Shown piece after piece: positions 24,943 to 33,665 of a stretch of 33,819 nucleotides of DNA. Below the pieces are notes generated by a model, which ran no database searches, was not told the DNA's origin, and saw only the letters and a list, made by a program, of their open reading frames with translations. Position 1 is the stretch's first letter. Every line of letters starts with the position of its first letter. Source of the stretch: an uncultured Bacteroidia bacterium (GTDB lineage: Bacteria; Bacteroidota; Bacteroidia; Bacteroidales; Prolixibacteraceae); assembly GCA_903854235.1 (NCBI GenBank), contig CAINVV010000250.1, positions 1-33,819 of the forward strand. Reading direction: 5' to 3'. A program made the position numbers and the translations under genes.

Positions 24943-26391
24943 CTATACCGTGTAGGTGGAAGAAGCAGTATCTCCTCCCCTGCCGGTCCAATTGGTGTGG
25001 AAGAATTCTCCACGTGGCTTGTCCAATCTTTCATACGTATGCGCTCCAAAATAGTCACGTTGAGCCTGCAATAAATTTGCAGGAAGTCTTTCACTGCGGA
25101 ATCCATCGAAATAGGTTAAAGCAGTGGCAAGACAAGGAATCGGAATACCGTTGGTGAATGAAGCTGCTGCAACCCGTCTCCATCCAGCTTGCGCCTTTTC
25201 GATGGTTTCAGTGAAATAGGCATCCAGCAACAAATGTTCCAATCCTGGATTCTTATCGAAGGCTTCTTTGATTTTGCCTAAAAATACCGAACGGATGATA
25301 CATCCGCCACGCCACATCAGGGCAATACCACCATTATTCAGGTTCCATTTGAACTCTTTCGCAGCTTCACCCATCAAGTCATAACCCTGGGCATAGGAGA
25401 TGATTTTTGCTCCGAAAAGGGCATCCTTCAAGTCACTTAAGAACTGAACACGATCGCCGGTAAATTTCTTTTCGGGTCCGTGGAGTACCTTAGAGGCTTT
25501 TACCCTCAAATCTTTTTGTGCAGAGAGGCATCTTGCAAAAACCGATTCTCCGATTAAAGTAAGTGGAATTCCAAGATCGAGTGCCGCAACGCCTGTCCAT
25601 TTGCCAGTTCCTTTTTGACCGGCAGTATCCAGGATTTTTTCAACGAGAGGTTCTCCATTTTCATCCTTGAAACCGAGGATGTCTCGGGTGATCTCAATCA
25701 GGTAACTGTCCAGATCGCCTTTGTTCCATTCGATGAAGGTATCGTGCATTTCATCGGCAGTCATGCCAAGCAACTCCTTCATGATCTGATAGGCTTCGCA
25801 GATGATCTGCATGTCACCGTATTCAATTCCGTTGTGAACCATCTTGACAAAATGACCGGCACCATTTTCACCCACCCAGTCACAGCAAGGTTCGCCATCG
25901 ACCTTGGCGGCAACCGCCTGAAAGATGGTTTTCACAGCCGGCCAGGCTGCAGGAGATCCTCCCGGCATCATGGAAGGACCTAAGAGCGCACCCTCTTCGC
26001 CTCCAGAAACGCCTGTTCCGATAAAGAGTAAGCCTTTGCTTTCAACATATTTTGTCCGGCGAATGGTATCCGGAAAATGGGAATTTCCACCATCGATGAT
26101 GATGTCTCCTGCCTCCAGGTGCGGAATAATCTGCTCTATAAAATCATCTACAGGAGCTCCCGCTTTTACCAACATCATCACTTTGCGAGGACGTTCCAGG
26201 TTCTGGCACATCTCTGCAATGCTGTGGCATCCGATAAAATTTTTACCGGCCCCACGACCAGCCATAAATTTGTCGACTTTATCCACCGATCTGTTGTATA
26301 CTGCGACGGTAAAGCCTTTGCTTTCCATGTTTAAAACGAGGTTTTCCCCCATAACGGCCAATCCGATCAGCCCAATGTCTGCCTTCTTCAT
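24943..26391 (-). CDS. gnd: 6-phosphogluconate dehydrogenase (decarboxylating)
   Basis: This 482-residue enzyme oxidises and decarboxylates 6-phosphogluconate to ribulose-5-phosphate in the oxidative pentose phosphate pathway. The Rossmann motif GLAVMGENL lies at residues 10-18 and is followed by YNRS, which is typical of NADP use. GTGVSGGEEGAL, the catalytic region GHFVKMVHNGIEYGDMQ, LDTAGQKGTGKW and the C-terminal FHTNWTGRGG confirm the classical long (dimeric) form. It lies 48 bases downstream of pdxB, probably in the same transcript, and ends at a strong terminator. zwf and pgl, its usual pathway partners, are not adjacent. Confidence 0.97.
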   Translation of the reverse strand: MKKADIGLIGLAVMGENLVLNMESKGFTVAVYNRSVDKVDKFMAGRGAGKNFIGCHSIAEMCQNLERPRKVMMLVKAGAPVDDFIEQIIPHLEAGDIIIDGGNSHFPDTIRRTKYVESKGLLFIGTGVSGGEEGALLGPSMMPGGSPAAWPAVKTIFQAVAAKVDGEPCCDWVGENGAGHFVKMVHNGIEYGDMQIICEAYQIMKELLGMTADEMHDTFIEWNKGDLDSYLIEITRDILGFKDENGEPLVEKILDTAGQKGTGKWTGVAALDLGIPLTLIGESVFARCLSAQKDLRVKASKVLHGPEKKFTGDRVQFLSDLKDALFGAKIISYAQGYDLMGEAAKEFKWNLNNGGIALMWRGGCIIRSVFLGKIKEAFDKNPGLEHLLLDAYFTETIEKAQAGWRRVAAASFTNGIPIPCLATALTYFDGFRSERLPANLLQAQRDYFGAHTYERLDKPRGEFFHTNWTGRGGDTASSTYTV

Positions 26392-26439: not shown

Positions 26440-27561
26440 TCAAATCCGGAATCCCAGCCTTCTCAATTTGTCTATCACCTTTGGATTGCTGAATTTGCCG
26501 GTGACTGTGTAGGCCGAAAATTCTCTTCTGACAGGGTAATCACCTCTTTGTTTTTCAAAAGTTGAAATATTTTCCCTGAGTCTGGAATCATCCTCGCGAA
26601 TGTCATAAGTCGACAGAATGGCTTCGGACAGAATCTGCTCTGTTGTTTTATTCGTGCCATCGATCAATATTTCCGACTGGGAAGGTTTCTCCACATTACT
26701 GGCTTTCCAGTTCCTGGAGGACCATCCAAAGAAGCGGCTGACTGCCTGGACACTCATTTCCGTCCCCTTGGCCTTCCCATCGCGCGAATAGCCGGCGATG
26801 TGCGGAGTAGCCAGATCCACCAGTGCCAGCAATTCAAGGTCAAGATTGGGTTCATTTTCCCAACAATCTACTACGGCACCTGAAATCTGACCGGATTGGA
26901 TGGAATCTTTCAAAGCATCCGTTTTAACGACCTCACCCCTGCAACTATTAATTATTAAAGGCTTCCGTAACATCTTGGCAAAAAAATGCTCGTCCGCAAG
27001 GTGAAAAGTAGCATCTTCACCATCTGGATTGAGTGGAACGTGCAGGGTAATCACATCCGATTCTTCAAGAATTTTACCCAACTCAACAAAACCCCTGTTA
27101 CCTTCGACTCGTGCCCGTGGGGGATCGTTGAGTAGCACCCTCATACCAAAAATATCTGCAATTTTTGCCACCTTCGACCCAACGTTGCCCACACCAACCA
27201 CACCAATGGTCTTTCCTGCCAATTTCCAGTTCAACTTATCAGCCATCACCATCAGCACGGAGGCTATGTATTGTTCCACAGACCCTGCGTTGCATCCAGG
27301 CGCATTCATCCACTTGATTCCGGCTTTTTCACAGTAGTCGGTATCTATGTGATCATAGCCGATGGTAGCCGACGCAATGATCTTGACGGAAGACCCCGCC
27401 AAAATGGACGCGTTACAATTGGTTCTGGTTCGGGTAATGATGGCATCAGCATCTCTGACCACTTCTGCAGTCGTCATGGATCCCGGTAGGTAAACTACCT
27501 CGGCATAAGGTTCTAGTGCACCCTGAATATAGGGGATTTTGTCGTCGATGATGATTTTCAT
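26440..27561 (-). CDS. pdxB: 4-phosphoerythronate dehydrogenase
   Basis: This 373-residue NAD-dependent D-2-hydroxyacid dehydrogenase acts in DXP-dependent pyridoxal-phosphate (vitamin B6) synthesis, oxidising 4-phospho-D-erythronate. The nucleotide-binding motif GVVGVGNVGSKVA lies at residues 120-132. The catalytic residues are Arg208 (NSCRGE), Glu237 (CWENEP) and His254 (TPHIAGYS). The C-terminal extension from about residue 290 matches the PdxB-specific dimerisation domain (DUF3410), separating it from other hydroxyacid dehydrogenases. It is followed after 48 bases by gnd. The upstream gap to the LarA-like gene holds a heptamer tandem repeat and no clear promoter. Confidence 0.95.
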   Translation of the reverse strand: MKIIIDDKIPYIQGALEPYAEVVYLPGSMTTAEVVRDADAIITRTRTNCNASILAGSSVKIIASATIGYDHIDTDYCEKAGIKWMNAPGCNAGSVEQYIASVLMVMADKLNWKLAGKTIGVVGVGNVGSKVAKIADIFGMRVLLNDPPRARVEGNRGFVELGKILEESDVITLHVPLNPDGEDATFHLADEHFFAKMLRKPLIINSCRGEVVKTDALKDSIQSGQISGAVVDCWENEPNLDLELLALVDLATPHIAGYSRDGKAKGTEMSVQAVSRFFGWSSRNWKASNVEKPSQSEILIDGTNKTTEQILSEAILSTYDIREDDSRLRENISTFEKQRGDYPVRREFSAYTVTGKFSNPKVIDKLRRLGFRI

Positions 27562-27703: not shown

Positions 27704-28993
27704 TCAATATTTGAAGCGCTCACGGTAGGCCCACAATCCCAGTGCAGGGTTCGAGATGTAAAAAATCTCCTCGCCGTCTGGCATCACGTTAAAACCATCC
27801 TTGAGGCTGGTGTGATCGTATTTTTTCTCCATAATCTCCAGATCGGCATACTGAAAACCAACACTTTCAATCTCCTGACGGGTGAGATTTTTGGCCTCCT
27901 TACCGGGACAATAGGTGATGTTGAAGCGACCTTCCGAGGATCCGTGAATCAGATGGGCAGCAGCACTCAAATTGTTGCGCAGCTCTTCGTGTTCATCACA
28001 GGATTTCAAGGTAGCCGGCGTTCCAAAATAGCCATACTTCCGGATGAGGCGGTCAATCTCCTTGTCCTCTCCAAATTCGACCAGCGCAGGAGCCAGAATA
28101 ATCAGGTCACCTTCGTCGGCCAGGGCCATCCGGGTACGGTAAATTGATTTGTTTCCCAGCCAGGTACTCTTAAACTCGGTTGGATCGAGATAAACAACGA
28201 CCTTTTTCAACGGCTTTTCAAGCATTTCAAAATTGATCAGCAGGGAAAGCTTTGCAGCAAGATCGAAGACCTCGGCATCATCCCCGATAAAGAGTCCGCG
28301 GGTCTTAATTTTCCCATCCGTCTTATCCAGTCCGACGACCGTCTGAACATAGATAATCGGCAAATGTTGCGTAAAATTTTCCGATGCATAGTTGAACACC
28401 CTGCGTACAGGTGTATCTGCATGTCCCATCATCCGTTCCATGCCATAGGCAGCACCGATGAAGTGACTCTTGTTGATTCCTTCCACCCCTCCGGTACCTA
28501 CAAAAATGTTCTTGTTGTAGTTGGCCATGCCTACCACTTCGTGCGGAACCACTTGTCCGATGGAGAGAATAAGATCAAAATTCCCCTCGAGCAAAAGTTT
28601 GTTTACCTGGGCGGGCCAGGGAAAGCTGACGGCACCCTTGGAAACCTCCTGCACGAAACTGGCCGGAACTTCGCCAACGGTAACTACATCGTTGCGCCAA
28701 TCGTGTTCACGGATCAGCGATGGCGGCATTGAACCAAACATGTGATCGATTTGGTGGGCAGTCATCGGTGTATGCGTTCCCAAGGCTGGCAGCACATCCG
28801 TCAACGACTCGCCATAGTATTGCCAGGTCATCTCTGTCAACTCACCGGCACGACTGGGGAGTCTGGTATAATCCGGTGGAATGGCCAGCACTTTTTTGCG
28901 CTTGCCCAATTTTTCGAATGCCTCGAAGAGACCCTTTTTCAGGTCTTCGGCAGTTAATTCACTATCGATAGAACCTTTTGCGTAATAGATCAT
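27704..28993 (-). CDS. LarA-superfamily protein (nickel-pincer-type hydroxyacid racemase/epimerase)
   Basis: This 429-residue protein belongs to the lactate racemase (LarA/DUF2088) superfamily, whose nickel-pincer (NPN) cofactor interconverts epimers of 2-hydroxyacids. IPPDYTRLPS (Asp41, Arg44) corresponds to the LarA DHTRP motif and ALGTHTPMT (His74) to the next conserved block. In VVPHEVVGMANYNKNIFVG, His151 and Lys161 lie ten residues apart, and His177 follows sixteen later. From memory, this spacing equals His174-Lys184-His200 of L. plantarum LarA, where Lys bears the cofactor and His200 binds nickel. The surrounding GYSGG-type glycine motif is altered. The gene sits with hexuronate genes, so a sugar-acid 2-epimerase, such as mannonate/gluconate, is plausible but unproven. 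No larB, larC or larE is in the window. Confidence 0.85.
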   Translation of the reverse strand: MIYYAKGSIDSELTAEDLKKGLFEAFEKLGKRKKVLAIPPDYTRLPSRAGELTEMTWQYYGESLTDVLPALGTHTPMTAHQIDHMFGSMPPSLIREHDWRNDVVTVGEVPASFVQEVSKGAVSFPWPAQVNKLLLEGNFDLILSIGQVVPHEVVGMANYNKNIFVGTGGVEGINKSHFIGAAYGMERMMGHADTPVRRVFNYASENFTQHLPIIYVQTVVGLDKTDGKIKTRGLFIGDDAEVFDLAAKLSLLINFEMLEKPLKKVVVYLDPTEFKSTWLGNKSIYRTRMALADEGDLIILAPALVEFGEDKEIDRLIRKYGYFGTPATLKSCDEHEELRNNLSAAAHLIHGSSEGRFNITYCPGKEAKNLTRQEIESVGFQYADLEIMEKKYDHTSLKDGFNVMPDGEEIFYISNPALGLWAYRERFKY

Positions 28994-29089: not shown

Positions 29090-30169
29090 CTATCGTTTCA
29101 CCCTGGCATTGCCTTTCCAGATGCTCCAAACCATCTCTTCATCTGCGGGTTGGGCATAGTCGGTCAGGAAAGTGGTGGCCAATGCACCGGAAGCCCAGCC
29201 GAACTGAATCCATTTGGCAGGTTCCCAGCCCTTCAGAATGCCATAGAGCAAGCCGCCTACAAATCCGTCTCCACCACCGATGCGGTCGAGGATGGTTATT
29301 TTGCGCGGCTCAACGACGTGCCATTCGGTCCCTTCCAATACAATCGCGCCCCAGAGGTGCTCGTTGACGCTGACAACCTGACGGAGCGTGGTGGCAAAAA
29401 CAGATGCATTCGGGAATTTTGCTTTTACCCTGTAAATCATCTCCTTGAATCCATCTATCTCTGAACTGATCTGTTTGCCGCCTGCTTCTGGTCCTTCGAT
29501 TCCCAGACAAAGCTGGAAGTCTTCCTCGTTACCGATCAAGATATCCGATACAGAAGCAATTTCTTCAAAAATGGCACTCAACTCCGCTTCCCTTCCTTTC
29601 CAGAAAGAGGCCCTGTAATTCAGGTCAAAAGCGATCCTGGTACCGTGCTTCTTGGCCATCCGTGCCAATTCGAGACAGAAGGTGCTGGTTTCGGGGGACA
29701 AGGCTCCGATTAATCCGGAAAGATGCACGATTTGCACACCTTCCTGTACAAATATCCTGTCAAGGTCAAAATCCTTCACATTCAACGTACGACCAACCTC
29801 ACCGGCACGATCGTTCTGTACCCTGGGTCCTCGGGTTCCGTAACCACTGTCGGCAATGTTAAACTGATGCCTGTAACCCCAGGGATTACCCTGCTCCACT
29901 TCAACCCCTTCGTAAGTCATGTTTCTGCTAAGTAAATTACTTTTGATCATCCGGGCAATCGGACTGTCTTTTACGAAGGTGGTCAGGACCTTCACAGGAA
30001 GGCCAAGATAGGAGGAGATGCTGGCCACATTGGTTTCGGCACTTGAGACTTCCATCTGGAAAAGGGAGCTGCTGTGGACCGGCTGTCCATTGAGTGGCGT
30101 GATCCTGACACCCATGCTGGTTGGAACCAGCAAGGAGGTTTTGCAATTTTGTTTTAATGTGAGGCTCAT
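29090..30169 (-). CDS. kdgK: PfkB family sugar kinase, probable 2-dehydro-3-deoxygluconate kinase
   Basis: This 359-residue ribokinase-fold enzyme is likely to phosphorylate 2-keto-3-deoxygluconate (KDG) to KDPG. The substrate-binding block AETNVASISSYLG (about 44-56) is the KdgK version of the PfkB N-terminal signature. FDLNYRASFW (181-190) is typical of KDG kinases. The C-terminal signature DRIGGGDGFVGGLLYG contains the catalytic Asp301. It lies 42 bases downstream of the UxuB-like gene and upstream of the LarA-like gene, probably in one operon. KDG kinase fits the hexuronate context. A related sugar-acid kinase cannot be excluded, so the symbol is tentative. Confidence 0.8.
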   Translation of the reverse strand: MSLTLKQNCKTSLLVPTSMGVRITPLNGQPVHSSSLFQMEVSSAETNVASISSYLGLPVKVLTTFVKDSPIARMIKSNLLSRNMTYEGVEVEQGNPWGYRHQFNIADSGYGTRGPRVQNDRAGEVGRTLNVKDFDLDRIFVQEGVQIVHLSGLIGALSPETSTFCLELARMAKKHGTRIAFDLNYRASFWKGREAELSAIFEEIASVSDILIGNEEDFQLCLGIEGPEAGGKQISSEIDGFKEMIYRVKAKFPNASVFATTLRQVVSVNEHLWGAIVLEGTEWHVVEPRKITILDRIGGGDGFVGGLLYGILKGWEPAKWIQFGWASGALATTFLTDYAQPADEEMVWSIWKGNARVKR

Positions 30170-30211: not shown

Positions 30212-31063
30212 TTATACTCCGCTGTAGGCATTGAACCCCCCATCAACGGGGATGACAATTCCGGTTACGAAGGAGGAGATGTCGGACAAAAGGTAAAGGG
30301 ATCCACCTTGCAAGTCATCGGGATCACCAAATTTTCCCATCGGGGTATTGGTAACAATTTTGTGTCCACGGGGTGCATAACCGCCTGTTTTTTCATCCAA
30401 AACCAGAAAACGGTTCTGACTGGTAATGAAGAATCCCGGAGCAATGGCGTTGACACGGATACCCATTTTTGCCAAATGGACTGCCAGCCATTCGGTGAAA
30501 TTGTTGACGGAAGCCTTTGCCGCCGAATAGGCAGGAATCTTGGTAAGGGGGTGATAAGAATTCATTGAAGAGATGTTCAGTACCGAACCCTTCCTTTTCA
30601 GGAGCATATCGCGGGTAAATACCATCGTAGGGAGGATAGTGCCCTTAAAATTCAAGGCAAAGACCTTGTCAAAACCCTCCATCTGAAGTCCATAAAAAGT
30701 CTTTTCGAGGTTGTCGAGGTCTGCTTCTTCCATCTGTTCCACCTGTGTCGTTGCCTGGGGAGAGTTGCCTCCCGCACCGTTGATCAGGAGTTCGATCGGA
30801 CCCAGTTTCTCGTTGATAACCAGTTTAGCCGCTTCGAGCGACTCCTTGTCCAAAACATTTGCTTTTACGCCGATGCAGGTTGCATCGAATTCCTTGCTGA
30901 TGTCAGCAGCCACTTGCTGGGCCAGTTCTTCGTTGATGTCAACAATGGCTACCTTGGTTCCCACTGAAACCAGTGCCTTCACCAGGGAGATTCCAATCAC
31001 ACCTGCACCACCTGTGATGACACATACTTTTCCATTCAGGTCATCGAAAGAAATTTTCTTCAT
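30212..31063 (-). CDS. uxuB: SDR-type D-mannonate oxidoreductase (fructuronate reductase)
   Basis: This 283-residue short-chain dehydrogenase has the cofactor motif TGGAGVIG (17-24) and the NGAGGNSPQAT block characteristic of YjmF/UxuB-type mannonate oxidoreductases. The catalytic residues are Ser near 166, Tyr179 and Lys183 (YSAAK), and the C-terminus VTGIVIPVDGGFNAYSG is typical. It would reduce D-fructuronate to D-mannonate with NAD(P)H in the isomerase pathway of hexuronate degradation. It is a different family from E. coli UxuB but the same activity. It lies 32 bases downstream of the LacI regulator and upstream of the KdgK-like kinase. The specific assignment rests on sequence resemblance and context. 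Confidence 0.8.
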   Translation of the reverse strand: MKKISFDDLNGKVCVITGGAGVIGISLVKALVSVGTKVAIVDINEELAQQVAADISKEFDATCIGVKANVLDKESLEAAKLVINEKLGPIELLINGAGGNSPQATTQVEQMEEADLDNLEKTFYGLQMEGFDKVFALNFKGTILPTMVFTRDMLLKRKGSVLNISSMNSYHPLTKIPAYSAAKASVNNFTEWLAVHLAKMGIRVNAIAPGFFITSQNRFLVLDEKTGGYAPRGHKIVTNTPMGKFGDPDDLQGGSLYLLSDISSFVTGIVIPVDGGFNAYSGV

Positions 31064-31095: not shown

Positions 31096-32151
31096 TTAAT
31101 AGGAATTGTAAAAATTTATGTTCTCCCTGGTTATCAAATCGATGGAGGTGAAATTCTCTTTCTTGATTTTATCCTTCTTGACAAGATGGTCAAAAAGCAG
31201 GTTAATTGCCTGAAAAGCCTGCATTTCAGGTTTTTGACAAATCAGAAAATCAATTTTCCCCTCTTTCAGCAAGGCAATGTTGATGGGGATGAGATCATAT
31301 CCGATGATCTTGGGTGTAACACACAAATTTTTAAAACAGATGGCCGCCTGGTTCACTTTGGAATTGGTTACAAATACAGCATTGACTTCACAGGGATTAA
31401 TTCCCAGATCTGCCAAATGCCGTACAATTTCTTCCTCGCCGTTTCCTGAGACTTCCATCTTCAGAAGCCGGTGCCGGTTGGAGCTTTTCTTTTCAAAATA
31501 TTGAAGGAACCCTTTCTCCCTCAAAAGCAAATGATTGGCGTTGTCAAGTTCTCTGGCAATGTGAATCAACAGGATGACTCCTTCTTCCCCAAGCCCCCAG
31601 TCGATCAGTTTGGCGGCCAAAAAGCCGCTGTCGTACGAACTTTGGGCTACAAACCCGATTGGATGGGTATTCGGCAGGATGGAGTCGATAAAAATATAGG
31701 GGATCTTTCGCTCATCCAGTTTTTGCGTAAAGCGAATGGCTTCCCGCTTTGCACAAGGAGCCAACATTACCGCATCTGGCTCGGAAAGCAGTATTTTCTC
31801 TGCCTCAGCGGAAAAAGAGGAGGAGTCCTCCATTTCAAAATAGAATTGTTTGATCCTGACTCCATATTCGCGGAGCTGGTTCTTTGCCTTTTCGACGCCG
31901 TGCTGAGGTTTCGACCAATAGTTGTCCTGATTGGCTGCTTTTGGCATGAAGGTGGCAAATACAATGTTCTTCTTGGAGGCAAGACTGCTCGCCAGCAGAT
32001 TGGGACGATAATCCAGCTCATCTATGATCTGCTGTATCTTCTCCCGTGTGGCAAGGGAAACTTCTCCCCTGTCGTGTAAAACACGATCAACAGTTCCAAT
32101 CGATACACCTGCCCGAATGGCAATGTCCTTGATTCTTGTATTTTTTACCAC
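31096..32151 (-). CDS. LacI-family transcriptional regulator of the sugar-acid cluster
   Basis: This 351-residue regulator has an N-terminal LacI helix-turn-helix (TRIKDIAIRAGVSIGTVDRVLHD) and hinge helix (PNLLASSLASKK). They are followed by a periplasmic-binding-protein-like sensor domain to the end. It diverges from the UxaE-like gene and heads the uxuB-kdgK-larA-like genes on its own strand. Two nearly identical palindromes lie in the intergenic region, one over its own promoter's -33 area and one at the epimerase start region. This suggests autorepression and repression of the epimerase gene, relieved by a pathway intermediate. The effector is unknown. Confidence 0.92.
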   Translation of the reverse strand: MVKNTRIKDIAIRAGVSIGTVDRVLHDRGEVSLATREKIQQIIDELDYRPNLLASSLASKKNIVFATFMPKAANQDNYWSKPQHGVEKAKNQLREYGVRIKQFYFEMEDSSSFSAEAEKILLSEPDAVMLAPCAKREAIRFTQKLDERKIPYIFIDSILPNTHPIGFVAQSSYDSGFLAAKLIDWGLGEEGVILLIHIARELDNANHLLLREKGFLQYFEKKSSNRHRLLKMEVSGNGEEEIVRHLADLGINPCEVNAVFVTNSKVNQAAICFKNLCVTPKIIGYDLIPINIALLKEGKIDFLICQKPEMQAFQAINLLFDHLVKKDKIKKENFTSIDLITRENINFYNSY

Positions 32152-32414: not shown

Positions 32415-33665
32415 ATGAAGAAGATTGGTAAATATAGTTTTGGCATTGGGGACAGGTTTGTCCACCAGGGAAATGCACAACTGAGGGCATTGGTGAAAGC
32501 ACAGGTTTCTGGGATTGAAGTGACGCCGGTTTGGAACAAGTCCAACAGGGAGCACATGTATGTACATTCGAATCCTGCAGATACCCGCGTCGAAGCCGAT
32601 CAGGCCGTGAAGGCATTGGGTTACAAAGGCGACTATTGTGTGGATGCGGATCATATCAACCTCAGCAATGTGGCAGGCTTTGTTGACTCTTCCGACTTCT
32701 TTACGATTGACGTTGCCTCAAAAATCGGAATTCCGGCTACGCCGGATGAAATTGCTGCATTTGTAGCCTCTTGCAAGCGTTATACCGGACAATTGAACAT
32801 TCCCAACATCGCTCATCCTTTTCTGGTTGACGAGGCGCTGCTTAAAACAGTTGCCGATAAATTTCTGACCGCCATCACGGAGGCAGGAAAAATATACCGG
32901 TTTATTGCCGAAAATAAAGGATCCGATGATTTTGTCACCGAGATCTCGATGGACGAGGTGGAGTCGCCACAGTCGCCCGTTGAATTGTTCTTTATCCTGA
33001 AAATGATCGCCAACGAGAAAATTCCTGCACAGACCATTGCCCCGAAATTTACGGGCAGATTCAACAAGGGGGTTGATTACGTCGGAGATGTAACCAAGTT
33101 TGCCCAGGAATTTGAAGAAGACATTTTGGTCATCGACTTCGCGGTAAAAGAGTTCAATTTGATGGATAACCTGAAACTGAGCGTGCATTCGGGATCAGAC
33201 AAGTTCTCCATCTACCCGGAAATACAGCGGATCATCACGAAATATGACAAGGGAATACACGTCAAGACTGCTGGGACAACCTGGCTCGAAGAGGTGATTG
33301 GACTGGCAGTGTCAGATGGGGAGGCACTCAAGGCTGCAAAATCGATTTACACACAAGCTCTGGCCCGTCAGGAAGAGCTTTGCGCTCCCTATGCAGATGT
33401 CATTGACATCAAGGGAGATCAACTTCCTTCTGCCGTAGAGGTGGCCGGTTGGAGCAGCGAGAAATTTGCCAACACCCTGAGGCACATCCCGGGTCACCCG
33501 GATTACAATCCAAATTTGCGGCAACTGATTCACGTTGGCTATAAAATTGCGGCGGAGATGGGTACCTATTACACCGATCTGCTGAAAGCTAACAACAACG
33601 TGATAGGTCAGTGTGTCGAAGAAAACTTGTACGACAGGCACCTGAAACGTCTCTTTCAATTGTAA
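32415..33665 (+). CDS. UxaE-like tagaturonate/fructuronate epimerase
   Basis: This 416-residue protein resembles UxaE, the tagaturonate-fructuronate epimerase first described in Thermotoga maritima. The N-terminal KYSFGIGDRFVHQGNAQL and the block YCVDADHINLSNV with potential metal ligands (about residues 77-81) are the most recognisable parts. VHSGSDKFSIYPEI, KTAGTTWLEEVIGL, and LRHIPGHPDYNP follow. It would connect galacturonate-derived tagaturonate to the glucuronate branch at fructuronate, which the UxuB-like enzyme next door can reduce. It is cytosolic, with no signal or membrane segment, and is transcribed divergently from the LacI regulator under a predicted operator. Family recognition is from memory of the motif pattern, so a related epimerase specificity is possible. 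Confidence 0.75.
   Translation: MKKIGKYSFGIGDRFVHQGNAQLRALVKAQVSGIEVTPVWNKSNREHMYVHSNPADTRVEADQAVKALGYKGDYCVDADHINLSNVAGFVDSSDFFTIDVASKIGIPATPDEIAAFVASCKRYTGQLNIPNIAHPFLVDEALLKTVADKFLTAITEAGKIYRFIAENKGSDDFVTEISMDEVESPQSPVELFFILKMIANEKIPAQTIAPKFTGRFNKGVDYVGDVTKFAQEFEEDILVIDFAVKEFNLMDNLKLSVHSGSDKFSIYPEIQRIITKYDKGIHVKTAGTTWLEEVIGLAVSDGEALKAAKSIYTQALARQEELCAPYADVIDIKGDQLPSAVEVAGWSSEKFANTLRHIPGHPDYNPNLRQLIHVGYKIAAEMGTYYTDLLKANNNVIGQCVEENLYDRHLKRLFQL

Follow-up and report, generated by a model that had tools for sequence, protein, structure and literature searches.

The occurrence of a LarA-type gene among genes for hexuronate metabolism raises two questions: on which substrate its product acts, and from where it obtains its nickel cofactor, nickel-pincer nucleotide (NPN). 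We analyzed such a gene, here named larAH18, within a 33,819-nucleotide stretch of an uncultured Bacteroidia bacterium of the Prolixibacteraceae (contig CAINVV010000250.1 of assembly GCA_903854235.1), the whole of which is called the window below (Table 1). A preliminary description of this DNA had placed the product in the LarA superfamily and proposed that it epimerizes mannonate to gluconate, opening a route to 6-phosphogluconate and Gnd that would bypass or supplement UxuA. The open reading frame was recovered with the ends described, and the superfamily assignment is borne out by matches to the Pfam model Lar_N (30.3 bits, cut-off 23.3) and to the NCBIfam model NF052594, "nickel-dependent putative hexonate epimerase" (cut-off 500). 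NF052594 (NPN_18_hexonate) was equated by its name with LarAH group 18 of Desguin 2020, and by sequence larAH18 is a further member of this known, uncharacterized group, with no sequence-level difference from it. Loop features (EV/S) of group 18 recur in groups 19 and 20, whose members epimerize D-mannonate to D-gluconate, and a hexonate substrate has been hypothesized for group 18 (PMC7583248); the portions of PMC7583248 and PMC11770544 considered here report no assay of a group 18 protein.

Table 1. Features of the larAH18 gene and its neighbors, in window coordinates
Feature	Coordinates	Strand	Evidence or role
larAH18	27704..28993	(-)	429 aa; NF052594 652.4 bits; fold Z 40.0 to 4nar
Codons His151 to His177	28463..28543	(-)	His151 catalytic, Glu152/Val153 selectivity pair, Lys161 and His177 cofactor-binding, by alignment to 2yjg and 4nar
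His74 codon	28772..28774	(-)	equivalent of LarA His108, second catalytic His
Arg44 codon	28862..28864	(-)	equivalent of LarA Arg75, NPN binding
PfkB-family kinase	29090..30169	(-)	PF00294 69.9 bits; passes no NCBIfam cut-off
uxuB, D-mannonate oxidoreductase, SDR family	30212..31063	(-)	PRK08277 370.8 bits, cut-off 281
LacI-family regulator	31096..32151	(-)	PF00356 and PF13407
uxaE, tagaturonate epimerase, divergent	32415..33665	(+)	PF16257 177.2 bits
gnd, decarboxylating NADP-dependent 6-phosphogluconate dehydrogenase	24943..26391	(-)	TIGR00873 760.8 bits
pdxB, 4-phosphoerythronate dehydrogenase	26440..27561	(-)	PRK00257 452.9 bits, cut-off 434

The residues expected of an NPN-dependent enzyme are in place. 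LarA residue numbers were taken from PMC7583248 and PMC11770544, and their positions in the lactate racemase structure 2yjg were assigned via motif. His151, Lys161 and His177 align without gaps with the His, Lys and His of 2yjg, at the spacing of 10 and 16 indicated in the preliminary description, and the glycine-rich motif ahead of the lysine differs as it had noted (GMANYNK in larAH18, GFSGGRK in 2yjg). A profile alignment to 2yjg pairs R44, H74, H151, K161 and H177 with LarA R75, H108, H174, K184 and H200, providing counterparts for both catalytic histidines (H108, H174) and for the NPN-binding Arg, Lys and His. The signature E, V, A, H of GntE enzymes (PMC11770544), which occupies the positions of LarA F175, F176, W358 and T359, is found as E152, V153, A346 and H347, the first two, in the loop, placed by alignment to 2yjg and the latter two, toward the C-terminus, solely through profile alignment to 4nar. 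All 77 larAH18 proteins, which come from 73 genomes, have R44, H74, H151, E152, K161 and H177, and 76 of them keep V153.

The predicted larAH18 model (pLDDT 92.8) superimposes best on 4nar, the D-gluconate 2-epimerase GntE2 of Thermotoga maritima (PMC7583248), with an rmsd of 3.1 over 392 residues, and 4nar is the best solved relative by both sequence and fold. Structures of LarA and Mar2 follow at Z 26.6-28.9 (28.0 and 28.6 for the lactate racemase LarA structures 5huq and 2yjg), then two single-His LarA-like enzymes at Z 24.5 and 21.7, and the next, unrelated fold at Z 5.5. Chance similarity to the LarA family is ruled out by the NF052594 score, the residue alignment and the fold match. LarA shares the fold and the catalytic and NPN-binding residues with larAH18 but is only 14-18% identical to it and has two Phe in place of Glu/Val. 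GntE2 shares the fold, the catalytic residues and the selectivity-loop Glu, yet is 24-26% identical and belongs to a separate LarAH group (20 rather than 18). Group 18 has extra basic residues relative to GntE2 (R288 and K319, located by alignment), which would hint at a phosphorylated substrate only if they lay in the pocket.

The gene neighborhood agrees with a role in sugar-acid metabolism. UxuB and, as the second gene downstream, gnd were both confirmed as neighbors, and profile matches further identified PdxB and UxaE. The product of UxuB is D-mannonate. Across 119 genomes (the source genome of the window, seven genus mates, and the remainder from the family and order), NF052594 was matched over cut-off in 73, and the larAH18 loci, with the window counted in, number 77. 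Genes at these loci were called with a purpose-made ORF picker and then clustered, one of the 77 loci falling outside the main larAH18 cluster. The neighbor counts, which take in loci cut by contig ends, are lacI 57, uxuB 64, pfkB 61, a Gfo/Idh oxidoreductase 42, pdxB 58 and gnd 63; the genes are almost always co-directional and mostly in the order lacI-uxuB-pfkB-larAH18-pdxB-gnd, while uxaE and uxaC, each at 37 of 77 loci, are mostly divergent. One genome (G014) contributes two locus copies with equal scores (contigs C4 and C12), possibly through assembly duplication.

The six-gene block recurs throughout the Prolixibacteraceae, and the combination uxuB-larAH18-gnd extends to Ignavibacteriota and Planctomycetota. 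A GTDB-wide scan with patterns including GQVVPHEV provided 80 named loci, of which at least five overlap the 119 genomes (L111 = G003, L115 = G009, L125 = G052, L130 = G071, L137 = G014); conservation of H151, E152 and V153 in this set is partly by construction, because the search patterns included that loop. The group 18 enzyme spans Bacteroidota, Ignavibacteriota, Planctomycetota, Verrucomicrobiota and Lentisphaerota. Of the 80 named loci, 52 have gnd within 6 kb of larAH18 on the same strand (each at 65% identity or more), 39 have uxuB at 50% identity or more, and 29 have both, comprising 24 Bacteroidota, 3 Ignavibacteriota and 2 Planctomycetota. Counting matches down to 33% identity raises uxuB to 61 of 80, a looser figure that does not show orthology, this identity being too low for a short-chain dehydrogenase. 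Among Verrucomicrobiota, gnd is near larAH18 at one of eight named loci.

Other genes of these neighborhoods were also recorded. The Gfo/Idh/MocA oxidoreductase (PF01408; e.g. L102:7938-8942) is the next gene downstream of larAH18 at 41 of the 42 loci having it, and the window cluster is without it. PdxB belongs to vitamin B6 synthesis starting from erythrose 4-phosphate; its gene keeps its place between larAH18 and gnd at 58 of 77 loci, and the pentose phosphate pathway offers its one evident connection with uronates. Five loci have, downstream of gnd, a 498-aa gene that was considered as zwf and rejected, being an IMP dehydrogenase.

In T. maritima, gnd-uxaRED-gntEK form one operon (PMC3750489) and GntE2 is active on free mannonate (PMC7583248). 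Both that operon and the window cluster contain gnd, uxaE and a mannonate-forming SDR; the operon kinase is GntK in T. maritima and PfkB in the window. The cluster matches the logic of the T. maritima operon and is best read as a path from mannonate over gluconate and 6-phosphogluconate to Gnd. UxaE and UxuB would supply D-mannonate from galacturonate or glucuronate, larAH18 would epimerize D-mannonate to gluconate (or the 6-phospho forms), the adjacent PfkB kinase would convert gluconate to 6-phosphogluconate, and Gnd would yield ribulose 5-phosphate, the whole bypassing or supplementing UxuA and the KDPG route. We consider it moderately probable that larAH18 is a group 18 aldonate C2 epimerase interconverting mannonate and gluconate and feeding Gnd. 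The substrate call rests on the subfamily, the selectivity residues and a neighborhood conserved across phyla. Going beyond the family, residues, predicted fold and conserved operon documented above, we infer the substrate, kinase specificity and direction of this route, and its mechanism is taken from LarA. The mannonate/gluconate proposal of the preliminary description thus gains from the hexonate-epimerase subfamily, from GntE2 as closest solved relative, from E152/V153 (and A346/H347) and from the uxuB/gnd neighborhood across phyla, and loses from a genome lacking LarB, LarC and LarE. Counted against it, besides this lack, are loci without a kinase and the scarcity of gnd in Verrucomicrobiota.

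Sequence does not fix the substrate strictly, since LarAH10, which lies outside the GntE groups, also epimerizes gluconate (PMC11770544). Another hexonate, or an aldarate, could be the compound epimerized by larAH18, with gnd nearby as a sign of general sugar-acid metabolism. The KM of Corynebacterium GntE1 on mannonate is very high, its authors suspecting another native substrate (PMC7583248), and two diverged group 18 copies (L106:8905-10155 in G027 and L108:8877-10148 in G003; 45-47% identical, 574-589 bits to NF052594) sit in unrelated gene neighborhoods. As these copies pass NF052594, group 18 need not share one substrate and the NCBIfam equivalog may not correspond to a single function. 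For larAH18 itself we regard a different substrate as quite unlikely, because UxuB, with its D-mannonate product, and Gnd flank it across phyla.

The identity of the neighboring kinase bears directly on the proposed route. The preliminary description had called it a KDG kinase; it belongs to the PfkB family, but the KDG kinase identity is probably wrong, since contig C64 of the source genome carries a kduI-kduD-kdgK-eda locus of its own. Against the KDG kinase model NF041332 (cut-off 440) the window PfkB scores 101.4 bits, and KdgK, the canonical KDG kinase encoded by the source genome, likewise falls below, at 204.4. The two kinases are 29% identical, and the T. maritima KDG kinase 2afb is matched with 319.9 bits by KdgK and with 119.6 bits by the profile of the window-kinase family. 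A pfkB gene and a canonical KDG kinase gene share a neighborhood at 22 of 77 loci. We infer for the window PfkB a candidate role in phosphorylating gluconate or mannonate, although in the source genome it could still act on KDG; its predicted model is poor (pLDDT 64.6). No FGGY gluconokinase passed the strict TIGR01314 cut-off of 648.55 in any of the 119 genomes (best in the source genome, 161.6 bits). That search covered TIGR01314, and a divergent FGGY gluconokinase, or one of the TIGR01313 type outside that model, may be present. A PfkB-type gluconokinase was not recognized in the titles and abstract openings of open-licence papers.

PfkB is not a constant of the cluster. Three loci (L092, L096, L104) carry a PfkA-family kinase and a HAD protein in its place, and at six more where it is missing (L158, L167, L168, L169, L181, L188) larAH18 has a PfkA-family kinase (PF00365), a HAD-family protein or both beside or near it, possibly as a non-orthologous replacement. 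At L036, L068 and L105, gnd and larAH18 occur with no adjacent kinase.

The order of the two steps could also be reversed, PfkB acting first as a mannonate kinase and larAH18 then serving as a 6-phosphomannonate 2-epimerase that gives 6-phosphogluconate directly. Extracts of Lactobacillus suebicus offer a precedent: in its galacturonate pathway, which likewise joins mannonate to 6-phosphogluconate and Gnd, mannonate is phosphorylated before 6-phosphomannonate is epimerized to 6-phosphogluconate, by genes not identified (PMC6978723). The operon logic would be equal, with gnd adjacent, and the sequence evidence gathered here does not separate kinase-first from epimerase-first. The characterized relative GntE2, however, uses free mannonate (PMC7583248), and we hold the kinase-first order to be unlikely.

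The preliminary description saw no mannonate dehydratase, and this stands for the part of the window examined, from about 14.5 kb to its end; in the source genome the best match to TIGR00695 is 36.9 bits, below cut-off, yet a truncated, divergent UxuA-family protein is encoded at the edge of contig C164 (L205:8261-9073; PF03786 95.3 bits; PRK03906 73.3 bits, cut-off 191). This protein may be a divergent dehydratase; weak matches related to it occur in several relatives. TIGR00695 is matched over cut-off in 50 of 119 genomes, and of the 73 larAH18 genomes 39 have uxuA and 34 do not. Six of the seven genus mates have no such match, and the other (G005) has two. uxuA lies inside the larAH18 cluster at 4 of 77 loci and at 8 of the 80 named loci. 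Where uxuA is in the genome or the cluster the epimerase bypass is not needed, and an in-cluster epimerase would run beside UxuA.

The second question, that of the cofactor, arises from what the source genome lacks. LarC, LarE and LarB were searched for with TIGR00299, TIGR00268 and NF033503, and none gave a match over cut-off in this genome (298 contigs, 95% complete); T. maritima, the search control, has LarC. The preliminary description had named absence of larB, larC and larE as grounds for rejecting its epimerase, and they are indeed missing from this assembly; the finding does not read as a refutation, as it recurs widely among carriers whose NPN site is invariant. Among the 119 genomes LarC is found over cut-off in 38, LarE in 39 and LarB in 37, with all three together in 37, LarB alone missing from G022, and a LarE fragment alone in G005. 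Of the 73 larAH18 genomes, 34 have LarC, 38, including the source genome, have none of the three, and one has the LarE fragment.

The absence could conceivably be an artefact, with assemblies incomplete or genes so divergent that they evade the models, given the state of the source assembly, the LarC-like matches of 83-90 bits, just below cut-off, in 3 of 50 named genomes, and the wider phylum sample described below, which was searched for LarC alone. Fragmentary assembly as the sole cause is ruled out by near-complete, low-contig and single-contig genomes. At 97% completeness or more and 100 contigs or fewer (figures that are rounded for the relatives), 14 of 30 larAH18 genomes are without all three genes; at 10 contigs or fewer, three of six lack them, G035 and G044 being single contigs. 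Presence is nearly all-or-none, G022 and G005 being the exceptions, and LarC matches across the 119 genomes either exceed 210 bits or are absent. We therefore consider an artefact of either kind very unlikely.

Where the LarBCE genes are present, they appear to serve group 18. LarC is associated with larAH18 (34 of 73 genomes with the gene, 4 of 46 without; Fisher p 1.4e-5, a test that ignores phylogeny). In 30 of the 34 larAH18 genomes with LarC there is no Lar_N match above 100 bits, so the group 18 protein is the likely LarBCE client in those 30. Among 18 LarC loci the order is larE-larC-larB in 11. A 133-aa gene of one cluster lies near LarC in 8 of the 18 and is NikR, the nickel-responsive regulator, in the one examined; the other recurrent neighbor (8 of 18 loci) matches only DsbD_2 and is at most a candidate nickel transporter.

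A further explanation is that larAH18 dispenses with NPN wherever LarBCE is missing, being inactive, structural or reliant on another cofactor. The 38 of 73 genomes without these genes fit this idea, as do canonical LarA-like proteins with intact loops that occur without LarB, LarC and LarE in G004, G007, G009 and G012. Against it stands the conservation of the protein: all 39 of the proteins encoded by LarC-negative genomes retain every NPN-site residue, and dN/dS is equally low there, with medians of 0.031 for LarC-negative pairs (8), 0.035 for LarC-positive pairs (15) and 0.039 for mixed pairs (25), in a sample of 48 of 129 pairs from which 81 saturated or undefined pairs were dropped. The larAH18 proteins of G044, without LarBCE, and G013, with LarBCE, are 98% identical. 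The invariant NPN site and purifying selection argue that larAH18 is functional in LarBCE-less genomes, and a protein that has abandoned NPN seems to us improbable.

The distribution of LarC over relatives is patchy. A quick larAH18 tree, which contains long branches and has 30 weak forks, requires 20 changes of the LarC label, and well-supported branches force at least 12 of these. Shuffled labels average 26 changes, and as few shuffles (4-5 of 500) are as low as observed, the label is somewhat clustered on the tree. None of 13 neighbor gene families shows a significant excess in LarBCE-negative genomes; the lowest uncorrected p values are 0.019 for uxaC and 0.062 for uxaE, both commoner in LarBCE-positive genomes, and 0.088 for a second Gfo/Idh, commoner in negatives. 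No candidate NPN transporter or alternative cofactor enzyme emerged from the larAH18 neighborhoods.

LarBCE absence is not special to group 18, but it is uneven; a restriction to that group is ruled out by LarA-like proteins with intact loops elsewhere. In a sample of 392 Bacteroidota genomes of at least 90% completeness, with LarC as the only LarBCE member searched, Lar_N was found over cut-off in 45, LarC in 26 and both in 17, leaving 28 with Lar_N and no LarC and 9 with LarC and no Lar_N (hand count). LarC accompanies 3 of 14 Lar_N matches above 100 bits, with 9 of the 11 lacking it from one family (f86), and 7 of 24 in the group 18 range of 22-51 bits, with 12 of the 17 lacking it from another (f65); the LarC-negative genomes, being concentrated in these families, are not independent. 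Genomes whose best Lar_N match is 60-90 bits act as a control running the opposite way, with LarC in 8 of 9. Eight loci taken from the 22-51-bit range all carry the GQVVPHEV loop. Three single-contig genomes (G292, G356, G470) have group 18 proteins (660-683 bits) and no LarC, and gnd adjoins the group 18 gene in G292, the one examined. A fourth (G551) encodes two LarA-like proteins with intact loops, its best LarC match being 20.9 bits. Nine genomes of family f86 each encode a pair of LarA-family proteins while LarC stays below cut-off, with loops intact in L224-L227 (L224 and L225 from G551). Among named genomes with the enzyme (50 of 80 searched), LarC is over cut-off in 22 and just below it in the three already mentioned; Verrucomicrobiota have it in 7 of 7.

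As the source genome is without LarB, LarC and LarE, the most likely source of its NPN is uptake or an unrecognized biosynthetic route. Salvage or such a route accounts for the missing genes better than an enzyme that is dead or re-purposed. Extended to the phylum, the proposal that LarA-type enzymes of Bacteroidota commonly run on NPN not made by their own LarBCE, but salvaged or produced by an undiscovered route, is one we put forward tentatively, at slightly less than even weight. It draws on the coexistence of users without LarC (28 of 45) and LarC genomes without LarA (9 of 26), on three genomes (G018, G026, G087; L212, L213, L220) that have LarB, LarC and LarE over cut-off and no Lar_N match, and are thus makers without a known client, and on the 20 changes of maker status on the tree. 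Genomes encoding LarBCE and lacking LarA (about 15%) have been reported (PMC11796402). LarA users without LarBCE, or NPN salvage, were not recognized in the titles, abstract openings and passages of open-licence papers.

The LarA subfamily itself was already known; new here are the proposed pathway assignment for group 18 and the cofactor paradox. The analysis proposes a concrete substrate for an uncharacterized LarA subfamily of Bacteroidota and four further phyla, and indicates a PfkB-type protein as candidate kinase for gluconate or mannonate. Plant-derived uronic acid carbon probably enters the pentose phosphate pathway via the sugar-acid inversion of larAH18. About half of the genomes with an intact, selected larAH18 show no known cofactor genes. 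Corrinoids are salvaged from neighboring cells and are a shared cofactor. If NPN passes between cells it would join them; if it does not, there would be an unrecognized NPN pathway or novel chemistry in LarA proteins. Should salvage or another route prove true, a shared nickel cofactor would be required for breaking down uronates by way of 6-phosphogluconate.
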